Origin: a virus
DNA length: 25,962 nt
Reading direction: 5' to 3' (one strand)
IMG/VR virus record: IMGVR_UViG_3300006947_000074
Location: 1-25,962 of that record
Below the pieces are notes generated by a model. That model ran no database searches. It was not told the DNA's origin and saw only the letters and a program-made list of their open reading frames with translations. Within the stretch, counting starts at the first letter, position 1, and each line of letters begins with the position of its first letter. The translations under genes and the position numbers were made by a program. This document shows positions 1,315-25,023 of this stretch, piece after piece.

Positions 1315-2454
1315 ATGATACTTACACAACCTGACGCAGAATACGCTGCGAATGTCTTTACCGAGTTCTTTGCGAACTTTGAACGTATTGATGACTATAT
1401 GAGACAGATTAAGATGGAACGCATGGACTCTATGCCCTTCACTTTGCCTGGCATGGGCCCTGAAGAGGATATGTTCAACAACTTCGATATGCACCCCAAG
1501 GATATGGAGTTCAGTATCGCAACCGCACATCGTGACCAGTTCATGTCCTATATGGATATCACCACGTCCGCACCTGTAGAGGCGTCAATTCCAGGCAAGA
1601 TGATGAACTGGGTAGTACGTGAGAAGAACAGTGGTATGGTTGTGGGTATGATTCGTTTCGGTTCTCCTACTATTAATAGCAGACCACGTAATGAGTGGTT
1701 GGGCAAACCTCTGGACACCATGAATGGTGAGGTTATGAAACGATTCAACAAGACCTGTATCATGGGATTCAACATCGTACCAGTACAACCGTTCGGGTTC
1801 AACTACCTTGGTGGTAAGTTACTTGCAGCTATATGTACCTCGCATACGGTACGTGAGACACTTAATGAAAAGTATGATGCAAACATCTGTATGTTCGAGA
1901 CAACCTCCTTATACGGTAATGCCAAGGGTGGTGTGTCTATGTACTCAGGTATGAAACCACTATTGATTGGTAATGGACAGACAGACTCTAACTTTGCGCC
2001 ACTCATCAATGATGACAACTATCGTACATTGAGTGACTGGTTCATCAAACGCAATGGGGGTGAACCTCTTGTACCAAAGGATGCATCATCTCGTAAGTTA
2101 AAGACTCAACAGAAGATGGTATCAATCATCAAGAACTCTCTGAAACAATACGACATGGACACATACACTAAGTTCTGTCAAACCTTCATTGATGCAAAGG
2201 GACTGACACAACAAAAGAATTCATACTACTCTACTATGGGATATGACCGTGAGAGTGTGAAGAAGTATCTCAACCTTGAGACCGACACAATCGTCAAAGC
2301 AGATAACTATGACCGATTCAGTCTTGAGGGTGTGACAGATTGGTGGCGTAAGAAGGCAACCAATCGATATGACAATCTTAAACAGGACGGTCGTTTACGT
2401 ACTGTGCAAGAGACTTGGAATACAAATGCAAAAGATATTGATATAATTAGATAA
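1315..2454 (+). CDS. DUF4338/DruA-like protein (379 aa), probable early protein
   Basis: The ATG at 1315 follows a GAGGAA ribosome-binding site and a sigma70 promoter. The central third (about residues 95-225) looks like the DUF4338 fold known from DruA of the Druantia anti-phage system. The cues are the NWVVREKNSGMVVGMIRFGS strand pair, the R-N-E-W-L-G motif, the FNIVPVQPFGFNYLGGKLLA segment and the CMFETTSLYG segment, followed by a GGVSMYSGMKP stretch. DUF4338 proteins characteristically carry an R-D-x-I-G-W motif and an LLETF(V) motif at these places. This match is recognised from memory of the family pattern and is not a search result. The C-terminal 120 residues are charged and helical and may bind nucleic acid. 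The reaction is unknown. The next gene encodes a ParB-fold protein with its own promoter. It could also be a marine-phage family unrelated to DruA. Confidence 0.55.
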   Translation: MILTQPDAEYAANVFTEFFANFERIDDYMRQIKMERMDSMPFTLPGMGPEEDMFNNFDMHPKDMEFSIATAHRDQFMSYMDITTSAPVEASIPGKMMNWVVREKNSGMVVGMIRFGSPTINSRPRNEWLGKPLDTMNGEVMKRFNKTCIMGFNIVPVQPFGFNYLGGKLLAAICTSHTVRETLNEKYDANICMFETTSLYGNAKGGVSMYSGMKPLLIGNGQTDSNFAPLINDDNYRTLSDWFIKRNGGEPLVPKDASSRKLKTQQKMVSIIKNSLKQYDMDTYTKFCQTFIDAKGLTQQKNSYYSTMGYDRESVKKYLNLETDTIVKADNYDRFSLEGVTDWWRKKATNRYDNLKQDGRLRTVQETWNTNAKDIDIIR

Positions 2455-2459
2455 AACGC

Positions 2460-2488
2460 TTGCCATTATAGTAAAAGTGTTGTATAAT
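2460..2488 (+). promoter_or_regulatory. sigma70-type early promoter
   Basis: TTGCCA (2460-2465), 17-base spacer, TATAAT (2483-2488). It starts six bases after the stop of the 379-aa gene and leaves a leader of about 95 bases before the ATG at 2591. The leader has no gene. Confidence 0.82.
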
Positions 2489-2590
2489 GAACAGGTAAGA
2501 TAAGATAAAAGTTTTATATATACTATTGTGTTTTAGAAATTCTCTATGAGTCTTCTACTTCACTTAATTTAATCCAATAGGAGAAATACT

Positions 2591-3706
2591 ATGGCTATGC
2601 CTACACGTTACGTAACATTCAGTGATTTTCATCACACCAACCCTGACGCAATTGCGTTACCCGACTACACCGACCTTAGTGTAACATCTGTAAAAAATAT
2701 AAGACTCGACTTCAAAGATATTCATATTGATGATATCGATGGTCAGTACACCAAAGTGGAAACACACACCTCACAAGAGATTGAACAACTTCGTTTGTCT
2801 TTTGCTGGTGGAGTTGACACAATGGAGTTTCCTCCAGCGGTATATGACCGTGGTGAAGGATATGACAAAAGATATGTCTTGGTATATGGGTATGGTCGTT
2901 CCGAAGCGATTCGAGCACTTGCAATGAAGCCGTGGATATTTACTTTGTTCACTGGTACACCAGAACAGATGAAAGATGTCCAAGCAAGAGAAAACGAAGG
3001 ATACGTAAAACGTCTCAACAAAGAAGTTGATATGCGTAAATACCTAAGTTCTAAAGTTTCTAGAGGACTTATTAAAATCTCTGAGAAGGCAATCAACGGT
3101 GAGTTCGTTCGTATCTACGGTAAGACCCGTGATAAGACTTGTAGGAATCGTGTTGTGAAGATGGTTATGGAAGAGGCAGGGACGCCTCAACCATACATTC
3201 TATACACATCTGTTCCTAAAGTACAGGACTGGATTGATAACCACTCAGCGGTAGAACATAAAATCGGTGGTGAGTTTAACCCAGAAACCGATACCTATGG
3301 TGTGTGTATTGGTGAAGGTTACCAGTATCGTGCTATCATGCAATCCGTTACACGTTATGTCGAAACAGGTAAGTATACCGATTTGATTGGACACGTAGGT
3401 GCTCCAACGGCAAAGGCGACTCTAGAAACTAAAAGAGTGAAGTTCATGACACAGTTGGAACAACACAAACATGAATTGAAAATGTGTGGATTAAAAGTCT
3501 TTCCTTTGAACGTGATTGGGTTTCTACCACAAGAACGTGGAACAGAAAATTTGAAAGAATTGATGACGGGTACGGGTATTACTTCGCCCGTGGCGTTGAC
3601 TAGTACACCTTACGGTAATAAGGCATCCTTTAACTATAAAGAATCACTTGCAATTTTAAGAACCCGATACCCTGGCCTTGTAAGGGACTTGCCTTTAACT
3701 GTATAG
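2591..3706 (+). CDS. ParB/sulfiredoxin-fold protein (371 aa)
   Basis: Residues about 38-140 show a ParB N-terminal/sulfiredoxin-like domain: an IxLDFKDI strand, a helix (EIEQLRLSF), a PPAVYDRG strand, the signature YVLVYGYGRSEAIRAL (residues 95-110, equivalent to the G-x-x-R-x-x-A box) and an AREN motif (residues 132-135) resembling the ParB box. ParB-family domains bind CTP or act as small nucleases, usually on DNA. The middle region is basic and helical (GKTRDKTCRNRVVKMVMEE) and may be a DNA-binding unit. AGGAG lies at ideal spacing before the ATG. The gene has its own promoter (2460-2488). It is the only gene in the window that ends in TAG (3704-3706). Readthrough would add 11 residues and enter the tRNA gene, so TAG is very likely a true stop here. 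The exact role (DNA modification, packaging control or regulation) is not deducible. Confidence 0.7.
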   Translation: MAMPTRYVTFSDFHHTNPDAIALPDYTDLSVTSVKNIRLDFKDIHIDDIDGQYTKVETHTSQEIEQLRLSFAGGVDTMEFPPAVYDRGEGYDKRYVLVYGYGRSEAIRALAMKPWIFTLFTGTPEQMKDVQARENEGYVKRLNKEVDMRKYLSSKVSRGLIKISEKAINGEFVRIYGKTRDKTCRNRVVKMVMEEAGTPQPYILYTSVPKVQDWIDNHSAVEHKIGGEFNPETDTYGVCIGEGYQYRAIMQSVTRYVETGKYTDLIGHVGAPTAKATLETKRVKFMTQLEQHKHELKMCGLKVFPLNVIGFLPQERGTENLKELMTGTGITSPVALTSTPYGNKASFNYKESLAILRTRYPGLVRDLPLTV

Positions 3707-3727: not shown

Positions 3728-3801
3728 GCGGAATTAGTATAATGGCATTACAAGAGGTTTCCAACCTCATGACGGGAGTTCGATTCTCTCATTCCGCTCC
3801 A
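3728..3801 (+). tRNA. tRNA-Gly (anticodon UCC)
   Basis: A complete 74-base cloverleaf. The acceptor stem GCGGAAT (3728-3734) pairs fully with ATTCCGC (3791-3797), followed by discriminator T and an encoded CCA. The anticodon loop TTTCCAA gives anticodon UCC (reads GGA/GGG). The T arm (GGGAG, TTCGATT, CTCTC) has one G-U pair. The uppermost anticodon-stem pair is an A-A mismatch. A U73 discriminator and GCGG start are typical of bacterial glycine tRNAs. It is not an amber suppressor. A strong terminator follows at once. Confidence 0.93.
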
Positions 3802-8225: not shown

Positions 8226-8525
8226 TTAATCTTCGTCTTCATCGTCTAGTTCAGCAATAACTTCTTCTTCTTCGTCTTCCTCTTCGTCTTCCTCTTCGAT
8301 ATCTATCTCTTCGATATCAGAGTCATCCTCGACTTCATCGTCATTAAACATAGCTTGTGCAACTGCAATACGTTGTGCTTCCAGTGCGTCAGCCATCTTA
8401 CTTTGGATAAGACTTTGGAACGATCCCTCAGCGTTGTTTAGTTCGCCATCGGTGATGTTATTAATCAGTTCCTGTACCGCAGATACTTCTACTACTTCAC
8501 CTTCTGAATTTTCTACTTCACTCAT
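8226..8525 (-). CDS. 67: acidic prohead core protein gp67-like (99 aa)
   Basis: A 99-residue protein whose last 38 residues are almost entirely Asp/Glu (DDEVEDDSDIEEIDIEEEDE and onward). T4 gp67, the precursor of internal peptides, is similarly small and acidic and lies directly after portal gene 20, as here. The N-terminal half is a helix-forming segment (VSAVQELINNITDG, SLIQSKMADALEAQ). Its ATG overlaps the TGA stop of gp20, with GAGGAAG as RBS. It probably forms part of the prohead core around the portal and is cut by gp21. Confidence 0.78.
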   Translation of the reverse strand: MSEVENSEGEVVEVSAVQELINNITDGELNNAEGSFQSLIQSKMADALEAQRIAVAQAMFNDDEVEDDSDIEEIDIEEEDEEEDEEEEVIAELDDEDED

Positions 8526-10033
8526 TCTACTTCCTCATCGTCTTCGTCTACGGTTGCGTTCTCACCTTCGACTTGTTTTTTCATTTCTTCAATGTCTTCG
8601 TCAGACATCATCATTACGTTCTTCATTGCCCACTCACGTGAGAAATACTCACCCACATACTGAGATACTTGGTCAAGGGTCTGTAGTCTGTTCTGTAACA
8701 GTTCCGCATCCTTCAACTCAGTAAAGTGGTTGTCTCTCTGGAAGTCTACTGTGATAAAACTCTTCCACTCAGCCCAGTCCTGTTCAGTGATAACACCTTT
8801 CAGTATGAGTTGTTTCTTGAGTATAGCAGTAAACAATGTAGAGAAACGTCTACGTAGACGGTCAATAAACTTCTAGAACTTAACTTCGTCCCGTCCGATT
8901 TCAGTTGAACGACCTAACGTAAATTGTGCTTCCTGTTCCAAACGAGACACAGGTACGTTCAATGAACGATACAATCTCTTCTGGAAATAGATAATATCAT
9001 CAATCTGTCCGAGGTTCTCACCGCCAGGCAGTGTACTAATCTCAGTACCACGACCACCTTCTCTACGTGGTAACCAGAAGTCTTCCAACATAGACATATG
9101 TTTACGGTCATCTTTCAACTGACCAGTGTTCGAATCGTAAACAATCTTATTACGATAACGAGACATGATGTCTTTCATATATGCTTCTGATTTATTACGA
9201 GGCATATTACCTACGTCAATATAGAAGATACGTCTTTCGGGTGCACGTGCGAGACGATAGATAACAAGACTGTCTTCCATCATACGCAGTTGATTAATTG
9301 GTTTCAGTGCTTTATGTAGGTATGAAACAACTTGTTTCTTACTAGGGTCTAATAGACCACTTGATACATAGGAAACACTATCTGGAGAAAGTCTTATGCC
9401 CTGTTGGGTTCCCGCTTTCTCTTGATAGATGTAAAACTCGTTGACTTCTTTGACTATTTTTGCACCAGTCTGTTGATCTTTGTCGTGTTTTACTTCTTTA
9501 ACTTTACGAATCTTTGCAGCATCAATTGTTCTGATCTCTTGAATGCCAGCTTTAAGATTGGATTCATTGACTACGAGGTGGTGGTATACACGACCATCTA
9601 CATAGAATGAACGGAATATGTCATGACCCAGTTCTCCAAAATTCAACATACTATAGATGTTCTTGAACTCTTCGGTCATTTGTTTTTTGATGTTGTTGGG
9701 TGCTTCTACCTTATCCAGATTGAGTTCGCAAGACATATCCTGTTCTGAACCAACGATGGATTCATTAACAATGTCTTCGATTGCGGCATCTACTTCTGGG
9801 TGTGTTGCAACTCCACGATACTTGATAATAAGCTGTTGATTGTCCTTTGCCTTATTACCTTCCATGTCAATGTATTGACCATAGTGAGAACCAGACGCAG
9901 TAACGTACCCCGCACCATCATCATCGGTGGGAGCAACAATAGACTTTAACTTGTCTTTTTCTTTCTCTGGTTTTTCCTGACGTTTCAGTTCAAACCCAAA
10001 GAGTTTTATGCCGTTATTGTCTGACTCTGCCAT
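8522..10033 (-). CDS. 20: portal protein gp20, interrupted by one in-frame TAG
   Basis: Read as one frame this is a 504-codon gene, close to T4 gp20 (524 aa). Codon 387 (8873-8875) is TAG. The upstream part (386 codons) contains the portal hallmarks: VDAAIEDIVNESIV, EDSLVIYRLARAPERRIFYI, DVGNMPRNKSEAYM and LEDFWLPRREGGRGTEISTL. It ends RSTEIGRDEVKF. After the TAG the same frame continues KFIDRLRRRFSTLFTAILKK, LILKGVITEQDW and an acidic tail, which is the expected C-terminal third of gp20, with no frame change. No RBS-supported restart is visible after the stop. The protein forms the dodecameric head-tail vertex and nucleates head assembly. It is therefore essential, so either the TAG is read through or this copy carries a mutation or error. 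It ends in TGA, overlapping gp67. Confidence 0.93.
8873..8875 (-). other. in-frame amber codon inside gp20
   Basis: TAG in the context TTC TAG AAG between Asp-Glu-Val-Lys-Phe and Lys-Phe-Ile-Asp. One transition from CAG would give Gln. Translation on either side is clearly portal protein. Confidence 0.9.
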
Positions 10034-16332: not shown

Positions 16333-17132
16333 TTATCCTACAAAGAAGTCTGGTGGAGTGTCATACTCATTATATATGCGTTGACGAATAACTTCGATTT
16401 CCGATTTGGCATCTTCGTAAATTTGTCTACCATGAAGTTGAACACCGCCAGGCAGTACCATTCCTTCAAACTTAATAAGGTTTGCACCCCACTGTTCTTT
16501 TATGAGTGCGGTTGCGTATTCTTTCAGGAATATATTATTATATAGTTTACCATTAGCGTTGGCACTTGTCGCAACATACATTTCAGCCACGATTGATTTA
16601 CCAGCCTTGAGGTCTCCAGTTCACCAAGATCACCAAATATCTGTAAGGCGTTACCCTGTCTTGTCCATTGAATCTGTGGAGTACCCGTCAGTTTCATATC
16701 AATGAGACTCAGGTACTGTTGCATTTGTTCGTAACCCGCAATGTCAGCCAGACCATTTTGCATACCATGAATATCATTAAGACGCATTTGATATTTAGCG
16801 TCCATGAAACTAGTGCTACTAGATGAAGTGTCAAACGGAAGTACTCGCAAAATACTCAATATGTCATCTGGGTTTATACCTGACGGTAGTAGCCCTTCGT
16901 CCAAATCGAAATCAATACTACCTCTAGATACCATTGCAGCTGTTATGGTGATTGTAACGTAAATTCGGTAACTACCCTCACCATTGTATTCACCAAACAG
17001 TTGTAACGCATCGTTAACACGGTCTTCAATTTGTTCATCGTCCACGTTGATTTCGATCACGGGGTGTCCCAATCTACGGAGACAGTAATCGACAAACTGG
17101 GATCGGCTTGTTATTCTATTGTATTGTGACAT
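16333..17132 (-). CDS. 13: neck protein gp13, split by a -1 frameshift
   Basis: The N-terminal part (17132 to about 16614, 173 codons) is gp13: SQYNRITSRSQFVDYCLRRL, GHPVIEINVDDEQIEDRVND, ALQLFGEYN. It runs to ALQIFGDLGELE, then goes off into nonsense (TSRLVNQSWLKC) and stops at 16524. Shifting by -1 at 16614 restores the conserved C-terminus DLKAGKSIVAEMYVATSANA, IFLKEYATALIKEQWGANLI, FEGMVLPGGVQLHGRQIYED and TPPDFFVG, stopping at 16333. The join gives about 266 residues (T4: 309). One base appears to be missing near 16605-16630, most simply a second A or G in CTGGAGACC. I see no canonical X-XXY-YYZ slippery heptamer at the junction. gp13 seals the packaged head with gp14, so it should be essential. 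The RBS is AAGGA before ATG 17132. Confidence 0.9.
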
Positions 17133-17146
17133 TTATCTATTTATCC

Positions 17147-20100
17147 TTAGTTTAACAACGAACCTGCGTTATTGTATACGTTGATGCGGTAGTGTGCACC
17201 GTGTTGTCCATCTAACAAGTCCGCATCCAAACCACTTGAGGCACCATCCACTGCTTTGATTGCGGTCAATGTGTCGGCATTTGATCTGTTAGTAAATGTG
17301 TACGCACCAGTACCTGAGTTGTAAGCAAGTTGACCACTTGCACTAAACATTCCTCTAACATTCGCAGAGTCAATATCCATCACACCAGTAGAAGCATTAT
17401 ATGCAAGTCCGTTACGACCTGCGATAGATGCTCTTGCTCTTGCGTTGGTGTAGTAGAGATTGGTGTTCTCGGCCAAGTTCGCAGTAGTGAATGGACTTAG
17501 GTTAATGTTATCAACAAAGTCATCTCCGCTTGTTGCGATAGTAAGATTACCATTACTTGAGTCGTATGTTACACCAGTGATACCTGATACACCAATCGTT
17601 CCAGCACTATCAACAAAACCATTTGCGTCAATTGTAAGGACAGGGATTGCAGTTGCAGAACCATATGTTCCTGCGGTTACTGTAGTTTGTGCATCACGGT
17701 TGACTTCACCAGTGAATGTACCACCAGCAAAGTTACCACTCGCATTACGGGCAATGATTGCAGACCCAGTGTTTGCGGCAGTAGCAGTTGTTGCAGAGTT
17801 ATTTACCTTACCCGCAGTAGCGATTGTAGCAAGTTTAGTGTCTACAATTGCGGCATCGGACTTAATATCAGCATTGATAATCGAACCAGCAGTAATCGCA
17901 GCTGCGATACTGATAGATGAACCACCGTTGAATGAGGTTGCAGTACCAGTAACATCACCATTGATTGCAATGGTTCTTGCATTCTGTAGGAGTGTTGCGG
18001 TAGAGGCATTACCAGTTACCGCACCAGTCAAGGCACCAGTAAAGGATGCGGCTTCCACATCACCTAGTGCGAAGTTACCACCACTAGTATTTACGTTTCC
18101 TGCGATATCAAGGTCGTATCTATCAAAGAACTTAAACTTAGTTGCGGATGCATCATAGAACATACCCGCATGAGTAAAGGGTTGTGAACCCGTATTGTAG
18201 TTACCAAAGAAACCAAAGTCTTCGTTAAGTGGTGCAGCGGCACCTTTCCATACGTCACCACTATCGTGACCGTTGTCTGTACCAACATCTAGAGTAATAT
18301 TGAAACGTAGTGGAATGTTTGTTAGACCATTAGTCTTTAAGTTCCAATCAGAGTCTCCACCCGCAGAATCGAATCCTACGTGTTTGACCGCACCAATGCC
18401 CGGCCCACCATTCGCAGAGTCAAGACCCCATCGAATGACATCACCCGCAGCAGCACTATCCGCATCGTAGATTTGTACAAAGTATGTTTGTGTATCGTCA
18501 CCCTTATAATGATCCTTAAAGAGTACGTTGTTGACACCTGAGTCACCAGTACGTAGTACAGTAGTGATTGTGTCACCTTCTTGTACAGAGATAAACTGGT
18601 CACCAACCGCAAGAGTGGCAACCGTAGTCTTAGACTCGGAACCAAGGATGTTCAAGTTACCTGCGTTAGTTACATTACCATCGAATCTTGATACACCATC
18701 AACTCGTACTGTTTCAAATACTTCCGATTTCGGGTCAACCTGAATACAACCACCTACACCACCAGCACTAGCGGAGTCACCAACAAGTACTGTACCAATC
18801 TCAAATGCGTAGTTGGGGAATACTGGGTTGACAGTTACCAACTCACCCGCAGAATCAGGGGATACGTGTACTCTATTACCCGCAGAAAATGCCGCAGTGT
18901 TAATACCACCAAAACAACCACGAGTTGTTACGAAACCAAAGGCACCGTTTGCAATTACGTGTGCAGTAAGACCAAGTGTGTTTTGAACAGTAGAGAACGC
19001 ATTCGACCTTGCAAGTGCAATGGTAGGGAAGTCACTGGATGCGCCAGATACGTATACTGCCTTACCCTTTGCGATACTAGTACCACTGTTGTTATATACA
19101 CGAGTAACATCATCTTGAGAAAGTTTTATAGTTACGTCAGCATTCTGATACGCTAGTGCGTCAGGGCCATTCATGTAGAACAGGTTACCTTCACGCAACG
19201 TTGGAACAACCGCACCAGTGTACTCAGAGTTTGACATCTGCACTAGATTGAATTCAGCACTATCCGCAGTTATTTTTCTATCCGCAACTATATCATGTGT
19301 TGCACGGACATTATCAAATGTCTCGGTAGAGTTACGAACCAATACTCGACCCGCAGATGAATCAGCAGTAATTACCCAACCAACTGTATATGGGAAATCT
19401 CCACCAGTAGGTTCTGTTGTAGTAAATACACCCGCAGAATCAGGAGATAGATAAAGAGTTGCACCTTCAGTAAATCCACCTGTATTAACATCATTTACAA
19501 AACCTGTCTCGGTAACAAAACCGTCTGAATTGTTGACGATATCTTGAGTCGCCATACCAATTGCTTTATAGGTTGTAAAGGAGTTGGAACGTGCGGGAGC
19601 AACCGTAGGAACTCCAGCTGTAGAACCTGTAACATATACAAGACTACCATTAGTAATCGTTGCACCAGTCTCGTTCTTAACACGAATCAAGAATTCTTGA
19701 CCCACGTTTACAGTTATATCAGCAGTCGAATTGTAATAGGAAAGTGCTTCTTCTGCACTATCATAGAAGATACGACCACGTACCTTATTAGGATTTGGTG
19801 ACTGTGGTATAAGGTCAAGGTGGTCTGCAATCGCACTATCAACAGTTAATTTGTCGAAGGTTACATCAGCAGATGTACCAACATCCTGTCCGATAGAGAT
19901 TGCACCACCCGAATAGGTGACACCAGTTCCCGCACTAAGATGTGCTCTTACTTCGGTTGCACTTGGGCCAGTATATGTAATGACACCATTTGAATAGGAT
20001 AGAGAACCATCACCACCAGCATCGGTTACCGAGAACATTCCCTTAACGTTTGCGGAGTCAATGTTAAACTGACCACCAGACGTTACCGACAAACCTCTGT

Positions 20101-22662
20101 TTGCGGTTAGATGCGCTCTTACTTCTGATGCACTTGGGCCAGTGTAAGTAAATACACCAGTCGCACTATCGTATGCGAGAGAACCGTCTCCACCCGCATC
20201 GTTAACAAGTAGAGATGCCTTTGCATCACTGTCAGCACGTGCGGTAGTGTAATAAAGATTGTTTCCTTCGGATACGTTGGTTGTGGACTTAGTTGCAAGT
20301 CTAATATCAAAGTCAGAGTCCGACCGAGCAGTAGTGTAATAGAGGTTTGAACCTTCGGTGACATTAGCAGTTGTTTTGGTAGCAAGTCTAATATCAAAGT
20401 CTGAATCAGAACGAGCAGTAGTGTAATAGAGGTTGGTTCCTTCGGGTAACTGTGCTGTATTCGCATCACCTAGGTCACTATCAAAGTTTGCTTTGGTGTA
20501 TACAGTCTCAACATCAAAGGAGTATTGACCAGTAGAAGCGTTATATGTTAAGTCTCCACCCGCAGAGAATAGACCACGTAACGTAGAAGTTGATGTCGCA
20601 TCAAACCCAGTGATACCACCAAGTGCAGTAATGTTTGCAGAATCAAAGGTTGCTTGACTTCCCACCATGTTTGTGTTGGTGAGTGTAGTAATAGTTGCGG
20701 AATCAAAGGTTGCTTGACTTCCTACCAAGGTTGTGTTATTGAGTGTGCCAATAGTCGCAGTAGTAATACCCGCACTATCAATCTGTGTCACTAGACGTGA
20801 AAGGAAGTCGGAATCAAAGTTTGCTTTGGTATAAATCTGTTCAACATCAATCGAGAAACGACCAGTTGAACTATCATAGGTCATGTCTCCGCCAGCACTG
20901 AAGTGTGCTCTTGTTTCTGAAGCACTTGGGCCAGTATAGGTTAATACACCAGTAGAAGTGTTGTACGAAAGAGAACCGTCTCCACCCGCATCAGTAACGG
21001 ATTGGGAGTTTCTTGCTCTCACATCAGTGTAGTACAAGTTACCTTGTTCTGTCAGGGTGCTTGTCGTGAAAGGACTAAGATTAATTCGTGTAGTGAATGT
21101 TGCACCATCGGCAGTACCGATTGAGATATCACCGTCCGAAGAGTCGAATGTAAATGATGTTACACCCGCAACCGCAACAGTACCCGCACTGTCTAACTGA
21201 CCCTGTGCGTTTACCGTGAATACCGGAATCTGTGTTGCAGAACCATAGGTCGCAGCAGCAACACCAGTATTTGTAATAGAGATTGTATCACTACTACTAT
21301 CATAACTGATACCTGTACCACCGACCAATGCGTCACCAAGGTCACTATCAAAGTTTACTTTAGTGTATACGTCTTCTACATCAAACGAAAATGCACCAGT
21401 AGAACTATTGTATGTTAAGTCACCAGTAGCAGAGAACATGCCTTTGATATTTGCAGAGTCTATATCAAACACACCCGTAGATGAATTGTATACTAGACCT
21501 TTATCTCCAGATACATATCCACGAACACTTGCGGTAGATGTTGCATCACCCAATGCAGAGGCGAATCTTGCACGAGTATAATATAAGTTAGACCCTTCGG
21601 TTAAACTTGCGGTGGTTGACGATGTTTCGTCTAATAGTTTGTGCCATGCACCCGCATGTGAAAAGTAACCCTTACCAGTTCCATGTACGTGTGCGAACAT
21701 ACCATGATAGGTTGATGCACTAGGTAAGTCACCTTCCGCACTGTACATGTTACCGAATAGAACTTTACCAGTAGTTACAAGACTCTCACTACCTAATGTC
21801 CAGTAATCGTTAGTCTCGTCCCATAAGAAGCTCTTGTTAGCACTGTCACCACGTTCAACTTCAATACCACTATTCTGGGATGGTGCACCAGTTGCGTTTG
21901 AGTTGAGGATGATTGTGTTGTCAGCAAGGTTATCGTTTCCGTGTTTACTACGGTCTCTGTTCCGGTAATCGTCAGGTTACCCTGAAGAATTGTATTACCA
22001 GTTACCAGAAGGTTACCAATTGCAGCACTGTCTAGTGTTGCAGCTTTACCTGTTAAGACTGAGTTTGCAATGTTTGTAATGGTCGCACTATCAACAGTCG
22101 CACCGTTAACTACAGTTACACCTTGGTGGAACGTCTCATTGATATTGGTTCGTGCAATATCTGAATCATTGAATACAAACGTACCCGCATTACTGTCAAA
22201 GGACATAATTGCTGTGTTGTTTGTACTTAGAGATATGCCTAGGTTGAGTTTATTATTCTGTGAATCAACAATGATTAAGTCACCACCACTGTCTTTCAGT
22301 GATAGTGTTCCTAGACCAATAGTGTTACCACTCAGGTATATGTCACGGAACCTCTTGGTTGCACTACCTAAGTCATATGCTTCGTTCGAGTCTGGAATTA
22401 AGGAACCCGTAAATGCAGTATTGTCAAAACCAAATGTGTACTTATTCTGTGCACTATCAAAATTGAGATTTATGTTTGCATCGGTTCGTAAGTTGGTGAT
22501 CTCCCACTTACCAGAAAGTTTGTTATATGCGAGTATGGAACCATCAGATTCCGTGGCAGTAACATCTACACCAGCGAGGTTTGCTATACTGAAAGCACCA
22601 GCGGTCACTCGTTTAATAGGAGTTCCGACAACTACCTTTTTTACAATGATTTTATCAGCCAT
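17147..22662 (-). CDS. giant repeat-rich tail fibre protein (about 1838 aa), split by a -1 frameshift
   Basis: Frame one (22662-21925) starts MADKIIVKKVVVGTPIKRVT and ends LTITGTETVVNTETITL. Frame two resumes at 21925 with ADNTIILNSNATGAPSQNSG, the standard continuation in marine T4-like fibres, and runs to 17147. Restoring one base (probably TTGGCT for TTGCT) gives one protein. Domains in order: a fibre N-terminal region with the LGSATKRFRDIYLSG motif; beta-repeats with many FDSA and EGSNLYYTTAR units; two tandem paralogous modules of about 180 residues (about 19800-19250 and 19210-18660, each with a VYV(T/S)G...ARSN(S/A)F core and a SPDSAG motif); an Ala/Thr-rich stretch with TGAVTGNASTATLLQNAR; and the C-terminal LDADLLDGQHGAHY signature. 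It probably binds host receptors as a trimer. It lies directly upstream of gp13. No trimerisation peptidase or dedicated chaperone is visible. Confidence 0.87.
20241..20440 (-). repeat. 87-bp tandem repeats in the tail fibre gene
   Basis: Successive units begin at 20241, 20328 and 20415, exactly 87 bases (29 codons) apart. They encode SNLYYTTARSDSDFDIRLAT-type repeats joined by T-T/S-x-N-V-(T/S)-E linkers. Identity decreases toward the downstream edge, so they look like an old duplication drifting apart. Confidence 0.8.
20641..20760 (-). repeat. 60-bp direct repeat pair in the tail fibre gene
   Basis: 20641-20700 and 20701-20760 are adjacent 60-base copies differing at roughly a dozen sites. 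The first 22 bases of the two copies match exactly. Each encodes a 20-residue beta-helix-like unit with LVGSQATFDSA or MVGSQATFDSA at its core. Confidence 0.8.
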
Positions 22663-22681
22663 TATTGACGTTCCTTCCTTA

Positions 22682-23050
22682 TTATTTCGTTGCCGATGGG
22701 GAAACTTCGGCTTGTCCTTCAAGGACTCGTTGAATGATTGCGTTATTATCACTATCGGTATAGGAAACTTCCACATCATAAACATATCGACCACGAGGTT
22801 TCATCGCATCTGTTTGTGTGTTAGTTAGAGATAGGTTTATGATTCCATCAGTTGATGGAGATACAACCACGGCATTAAATTGAACTGTAAAGGGATCATT
22901 TGCGGAATCAGCATATCTGCGTTTTAGACTGGCAGCTACGCTGTGGTTGGAGAGGTTATATGTACTACCACTATCATGCACCAGATGTATTTCTACAGAA
23001 ACATCGGTGCCTTGATTAATGGTAATATCTTCGTAATTTGCTGATGACAT
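22682..23050 (-). CDS. small beta-rich virion-associated protein (122 aa)
   Basis: A 122-residue protein with an immunoglobulin-like strand pattern: DITINQGTDVSVEIHLVHDS, YNLSNHSVAASLKRRYAD, GIINLSLTNTQTDAMKPRGR, YVYDVEVSYTDSDN, VLEGQAEVSPSATK. This pattern (ITINQG at the start, a GRYVYDVE strand and a final V-x-G-x-x-x-V-S-P) is common in marine T4-like phages just upstream of large tail fibre genes. It also resembles the N-terminal domain of BppU-type baseplate upper proteins; both statements are from memory of the families. It may be an adaptor between fibre and baseplate. No strong RBS is seen. A T4 late promoter lies 41 bases upstream. The fibre gene begins 19 bases after its stop. Confidence 0.68.
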   Translation of the reverse strand: MSSANYEDITINQGTDVSVEIHLVHDSGSTYNLSNHSVAASLKRRYADSANDPFTVQFNAVVVSPSTDGIINLSLTNTQTDAMKPRGRYVYDVEVSYTDSDNNAIIQRVLEGQAEVSPSATK

Positions 23051-23805: not shown

Positions 23806-24551
23806 ACTATAGGTGTGTCCTTTTGTAAACAACCTGAGTAATGTCTAAGGATAGGTGGAGCACCAGTCTTAGACTTCAAACCTTCGTATCCGTATTGTGT
23901 AAAGTAATTCCATCGGATATCATCTTCGAAGATTCCAATCTTGAGGTCTTTGTATTTCTCGACCTTATTCACTAACCACCAGAGGGTTGTCTGATCGAAA
24001 TGTCGGAGGTCTTTAGCCCACTGTGCTTTATCGAAACCATCGGGCATCCATCTATTATCATATTGTTTACAATACAGTTCATACCAATCGTCCATAAACT
24101 CCTTTACTAATGGATTTCCACTGCGATATAAACACACTCCTCCACACAATTTATACTTCTCATATCCACCGTTGTACATGAACTCACGAATAGCATAGAA
24201 TTGTTCACGTTCCTTGGTTAACTCGTGAAAGACCATATCATAGTCTTTCATCTCATCCCATATGGTCATGATATCTTCGTGTTCACACTCCATATCGGCA
24301 TCGACATACATCGTAATGTCGTAGGGTGTGTTTGCCATACCCCACAGTTTTGCACGGTAGTGGTTATCACAGATGATGATTTGATCAGTGTCTTCGGTTT
24401 CACGGCCGTCAAAGAACCTTTCCTCGGTCACCAAGGTGATGAGTGCTTCTGGGTAATAGTCTTTGATTGATTGTATTAGATTTATTGCATAAGTGTAAAA
24501 ATTAATATTTCTTGATGCAACAATAACAAAACCTTTACTTAGTTCCGACAT
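23802..24551 (-). CDS. GT-A fold glycosyltransferase (249 aa)
   Basis: The N-terminus FVIVASRNINFYTYAINLIQ with SIKDYYPEALITLVTE is a Rossmann-like nucleotide-sugar-binding start. TMYVDADMEC (residues 80-89) provides the D84-x-D86 metal motif of GT-A enzymes. Later segments LCGGVCLYR, DQTTLWWLVNK and RHYSG fit a GT8-like acceptor region. It transfers a sugar from a nucleotide donor; the acceptor is unknown. Overlaps with both neighbours (17 bases with the upstream gene, ATGA with the oxygenase) put it in a tight three-gene cluster upstream of the fibre genes. Decoration of virion proteins is therefore a plausible inference. AGGA lies about 11 bases before the ATG. It ends in TGA. Confidence 0.8.
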   Translation of the reverse strand: MSELSKGFVIVASRNINFYTYAINLIQSIKDYYPEALITLVTEERFFDGRETEDTDQIIICDNHYRAKLWGMANTPYDITMYVDADMECEHEDIMTIWDEMKDYDMVFHELTKEREQFYAIREFMYNGGYEKYKLCGGVCLYRSGNPLVKEFMDDWYELYCKQYDNRWMPDGFDKAQWAKDLRHFDQTTLWWLVNKVEKYKDLKIGIFEDDIRWNYFTQYGYEGLKSKTGAPPILRHYSGCLQKDTPIV

Positions 24552-24984
24552 CTTCTAATGATTCCTGTACCAATAAAATAGCATATAAATTCACTTCAGG
24601 GACAGATTTAGACCGTCTTAGTTTTGATTTCAACAAACGATTTTTAGATTCTTTAATCTCTGGAATTTCAAAGGTTTCTAGTTTATACTCAAAGAGTTGT
24701 TCTAGTTTCTTTGCACGTTCGTGTTCCATTTTCTTTTGTTTTTCGATGTCCGCTTCGTCTTGTTTTTTCGACAATCGTTTTTGACTAGAGGCATTAATCT
24801 TTTCTTCACCGAGAAATTCAATCGCTTCTATGAACAATTCATTGGGGGTGCCATCGGCATTCAATTTCTCTATTTTGTGAACCTGACGTTTAGTTTTATT
24901 ACCGTCAACTTCTTCGCTTATTGCGTTTAATAACTATTTTCTGGGTGTTTCCCAAAACGCATTATCTAACCATGTTCTAGACAT
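24535..24984 (-). CDS. charged coiled-coil protein (149 codons) with in-frame TAG at codon 17
   Basis: An AGGAG ribosome-binding site seven bases before ATG 24984 starts MSRTWLDNAFWETPRK. Codon 17 (24934-24936) is TAG, and the same frame continues LLNAISEEVDGNKTKRQVHK, IEKLNADGTPNELFIEAIEF and onward to TAA at 24535. The middle (KRLSKKQDEADIEKQKKMEH with ERAKKLEQLFEY) is a Lys/Glu-rich coiled coil. No family is recognised. The only initiation option after the TAG is a TTG at 24864, without a clear RBS, and it would discard a good protein-like segment. I therefore treat the frame as one gene with an amber codon. It overlaps the glycosyltransferase by 17 bases. It could be a tail-associated or chaperone-like protein, but that is a guess. 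Confidence 0.65.
24934..24936 (-). other. in-frame amber codon in the coiled-coil gene
   Basis: TAG in the context AAA TAG TTA at codon 17, sixteen codons after an RBS-supported start. The frame remains open for another 131 sense codons with protein-like composition. Gln (CAG) is one transition away, as in the gp20 amber. Confidence 0.75.
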
Positions 24985-25023
24985 TATAGTCTCCTGTTTC
25001 ATTCAGTTTTATATATAAGTAAT

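Follow-up and report, generated by a model that had tools for sequence, protein, structure and literature searches.

The in-frame TAG at codon 387 of the phage portal gene gp20 is most likely not a real biological feature and is mainly a case for caution. It probably stems from faulty base calling, low coverage or misassembly in an error-bearing metagenome contig; an error is the favoured explanation because the stop is shared by none of more than 100 relatives and three more lone frame-breaking flaws occur in the same fragment. The TAG, its uniqueness, the three other flaws and the intact genes of two near-identical records (the twins) were all directly observed, and what we infer from them is an error as the source instead of a real mutation. 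The change would be an isolated C-to-T in a conserved gp20 glutamine codon, in this contig alone, and the portal of the actual phage is presumably full length and ordinary, with glutamine at position 387. In our best reading, an error-bearing contig ranks first and a truly defective genome second, while recoding or readthrough is very unlikely.

The portal gene and its codon 387

The window, by which we mean the whole stretch of DNA analysed here (25,962 nucleotides), is the 26 kb virus record of a marine T4-like phage. The head and neck genes lie on its minus strand in the usual order (gp23, gp22, gp21, gp20, gp19, gp18, gp17, gp16, gp15, gp14, gp13), and two features concern us first.

8522-10033, minus strand: gp20 portal protein gene, 503 codons plus TGA, broken by a single TAG and otherwise open
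8873-8875, minus strand: TAG, codon 387 of gp20, a glutamine codon in all relatives examined

With its one internal TAG, gp20 scores 577 bits against Pfam Portal_T4 (positions 2-433 of the 433-position model) and 642 bits against PHROG 213 (portal protein; residues 9-499), and the match to T4 gp20 spans almost the whole protein (E 1e-112). The full-length match to Portal_T4 and PHROG 213 is that of a T4-type portal, while the uninterrupted frame found in the relatives examined is broken here at codon 387. A preliminary description of this DNA had placed the TAG at 8873-8875 as codon 387, with gp20 sequence in one frame on both sides, and the minus-strand reading and the two profile matches bear this out. 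The gene is also otherwise full length, as described there, but consists of 503 sense codons plus TGA and not of 504 codons. The further claim that no ribosome-binding site drives a restart past the stop held as well: no clear Shine-Dalgarno sequence precedes the in-frame TTG, GTG or ATG codons at 400, 440, 460 and 470-484, none makes a convincing restart, and a start at the later ones would keep little of the portal domain.

Alignment with gp20 of relatives, a check proposed in the preliminary description, gave glutamine at this site in 80 of 80 first-pass IMG/VR relatives (CAG in 56, CAA in 24), which share 71 to 95% identity over their longest alignments. The first position of the codon is C in 108 of 108 loci of a wider set, whose loci partly overlap and so include certain records repeatedly. 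A scan that required the exact 40-base flanks and allowed either C or T at the site retrieved 25 viral records, every one of which has C. A degenerate-pattern scan for the portal motif with TAG at the site returned no portal gene; its three TAG-site matches were rejected as out-of-frame chance matches without gp20 homology. The flank and motif scans apparently exclude the window's own record, which is the only one from which the codon 387 TAG is known. A megablast search of the whole window against isolate phages returned weak relatives only.

The closest comparison is provided by the 38 kb record IMGVR_UViG_3300027810_000024, reached via a gp13 search. Across 19 kb its DNA is 98% identical to that of the window, rising to about 99% in the gp20 region. 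Its gp20 is intact and has no TAG. Of the four bases at which the two gp20 genes differ, one makes the stop, one is synonymous and two alter an amino acid. The window's gp20 is not decaying, since of these four differences the stop alone is absent from other relatives. The second twin is the 14.7 kb record IMGVR_UViG_3300009441_000121.

Further frame-breaking changes in the contig

Comparison of the window with the two twins revealed three further lone frame-breaking changes besides the gp20 TAG.

16333-17132, minus strand: neck gene gp13, with a lone one-base deletion at 16621/16622 that leaves ORFs 16524-17132 and 16333-16590
17147-22794, minus strand: large structural protein gene, with a lone one-base deletion at 21931/21932 that leaves ORFs 17147-21748 and 21793-22794
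24535-25002, minus strand: conserved 155-codon gene, with TAG at codon 23 (24934-24936) where both twins have GAG (Glu)

Both gp13 pieces match PHROG 211; four near relatives carry an additional base at 16621/16622, and the twin ORF has 266 codons. The large structural gene has 1887 codons in both twins. As a separate observation on this gene, the window is far more divergent from the twins around 19350-19850 than in the remainder. The 155-codon gene, of unknown function, has 77 related loci in IMG/VR, and its codon 23 site is variable, with glutamine in 18 of the 77 relatives. In searches at each of the three sites, every other viral record in which the flanks occur lacked the flaw. For the flaws at 21931/21932 and 24934-24936, the twins amount to about one independent witness, since the two are nearly the same sequence, with 25 differences between them in 12.8 kb.

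Across gp13-gp23, about three other records carry comparable flaws among 727 distinct gene copies (689 kb). Under this background, two flaws in the window's 11.5 kb of gp13-gp23 exceed expectation (P about 0.001), so they are to be ascribed to the contig and not to the gene. Stops that lie at the very N-terminus, upstream of where translation probably begins, were left out of the tally of flaws; these are apparent stops in gp17 of the relatives L048, L053, L056 and L058 and stops in four 155-codon family records.

Three further observations were made in the terminase gene gp17 of relatives. L100:3516-4901 has a lone in-frame TAG where the twin has Glu, probably a flaw of the same kind. In the 107 kb contig L042, the gp17 match (1912-3485) is spread over three frames and breaks near residues 95 and 230. 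At L140:10410-11480, a 1071-base insertion near residue 270 contains an ORF resembling a GIY-YIG homing endonuclease, as is seen in introns, and has no Rfam family match.

A real and recent nonsense mutation, in a genome that is either a dead copy or complemented by co-infection, is a possible but distinctly less probable source of the TAG; the truncated 386-residue portal would then be non-functional. One transition suffices to turn CAG into TAG, gene 20 amber lines of T4 exist in the laboratory (10am13am17am20am; PMC9958956), and the undecayed remainder of gp20 is what a very young mutation would leave. The types of flaw in the window are mixed (one C-to-T, one G-to-T and two one-base deletions from two-base runs), which is compatible with error, and with ordinary mutation too, and damage to several structural genes is compatible with a dead genome. 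However, four independent lethal or near-lethal changes in a single lytic genome otherwise near identical to its intact twins would be unlikely in a replicating lineage, and a dead copy would be unlikely to emerge as the assembled consensus unless coverage was very low. We therefore prefer an erroneous contig, and suggest that when a metagenome contig shows a lone stop in an essential gene, it be compared with near-identical records and examined for other flaws before recoding is proposed.

Proposed TAG decoding and 386-residue product

The preliminary description had left a choice between a TAG decoded as an amino acid and a mutant or misread copy. The evidence speaks for the second of these, given that the TAG is unique, that no tRNA with a CUA anticodon was seen in the loci scanned and that the contig has further lone flaws. 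Decoding as glutamine, whether by reassignment resembling genetic code 15 or by a phage or host suppressor tRNA encoded elsewhere, would restore a full-length portal. In known TAG-recoded phages glutamine is the residue inserted, in-frame TAGs are numerous, coding density is clearly raised and suppressor tRNAs are present (PMC9523058). The glutamine of relatives at position 387 agrees with this, as does the glutamine found in some relatives at the second TAG site, and both in-gene TAGs of the window are on the structural-gene strand. The second TAG nevertheless neither supports nor excludes a glutamine reading, its site being variable and accepting glutamine. For the same reason, the contrast between glutamine at one TAG site and Glu in the twins at the other is only a weak argument against a single decoding, and we make no use of it.

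The remaining evidence makes decoding very improbable. The tRNA scan identified a single tRNA in the window and no CUA suppressor.

3728-3801, plus strand: tRNA-Gly(TCC), the sole tRNA in the window

The search for a CUA anticodon, suggested in the preliminary description, yielded none in the window, which is a genome fragment, or in any of the other loci scanned, which fall short of complete genomes. The window has only two in-gene TAGs (in gp20 and in the 155-codon gene), and a tally of 20 ORFs, with about 6,850 codons, has one in-frame TAG against 210 CAA/CAG codons. TAG has also not been abandoned as a terminator: it ends two of the 20 ORFs (2591-3706 and 21793-22794), and the first of these is the informative one, the second being a fragment made by the frameshift. 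The TAG of ORF 2591-3706 lies immediately before the tRNA-Gly gene, which the frame would otherwise enter. The coding gained if TAG is read as sense is roughly 2% of the window, where the threshold for calling code 15 is a gain of 10% (PMC9523058). Finally, the two one-base deletions in the contig are beyond rescue by recoding, and the twin at 99% identity has no TAG. It is equally hard to credit that a marine T4-like lineage is starting to use TAG as sense in its late structural genes, with a suppressor tRNA outside the fragment, although TAG decoding, if true, would represent an early stage of stop reassignment in such a phage.

The preliminary description had also raised a short portal of 386 residues, and a functional product of this kind was not supported. 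Stop codons followed by A can be leaky. The TAG at codon 387 is followed by A, and the truncation point lies past the tunnel loop, as a regulated short form made by programmed readthrough or early termination might have it, but this reading is the least probable of those considered here. No relative keeps the stop (0 of 108 relatives and 0 of 25 exact-flank records), so none could make such a form, whereas a programmed stop would be conserved among them. Counted from the pairwise alignment, codon 387 aligns with residue 404 of T4 gp20, in which the bent wing-domain helix alpha8 spans residues 399-428 and the crown residues 451-524 (PMC4493910); the T4 gp20 dodecamer initiates head assembly (PMC9958956). 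Judged from this alignment, the 386-residue product is unlikely to be functional because it would lose most of alpha8, the last wing helix (alpha9) and the crown.

Comparison with known systems

Like the crAss-like phages that use code 15, the window has an in-frame TAG where relatives have glutamine. Those phages carry TAGs across many late genes together with a suppressor tRNA, whereas the window has two TAGs, keeps TAG stops and has no such tRNA in view. Its resemblance to T4-type portal genes is much more extensive. The window's gp20 is a full-length collinear homologue of T4-type gp20 (PDB 6UZC, 3JA7; PF07230; PHROG 213) and shares its neighbours, with gp21, gp22 and gp23 downstream and gp19, gp18 and gp17 upstream; it differs in having TAG where T4 has the codon for residue 404. 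Phage C48C1 (OQ984149, Kyanoviridae) has the same head-gene order and about 78% DNA identity to the window's head genes, and its portal CDS is intact, with no annotated internal stop. The same gene order is found in IMGVR_UViG_3300027810_000024, where all four of the genes broken in the window are free of its frame-breaking changes.
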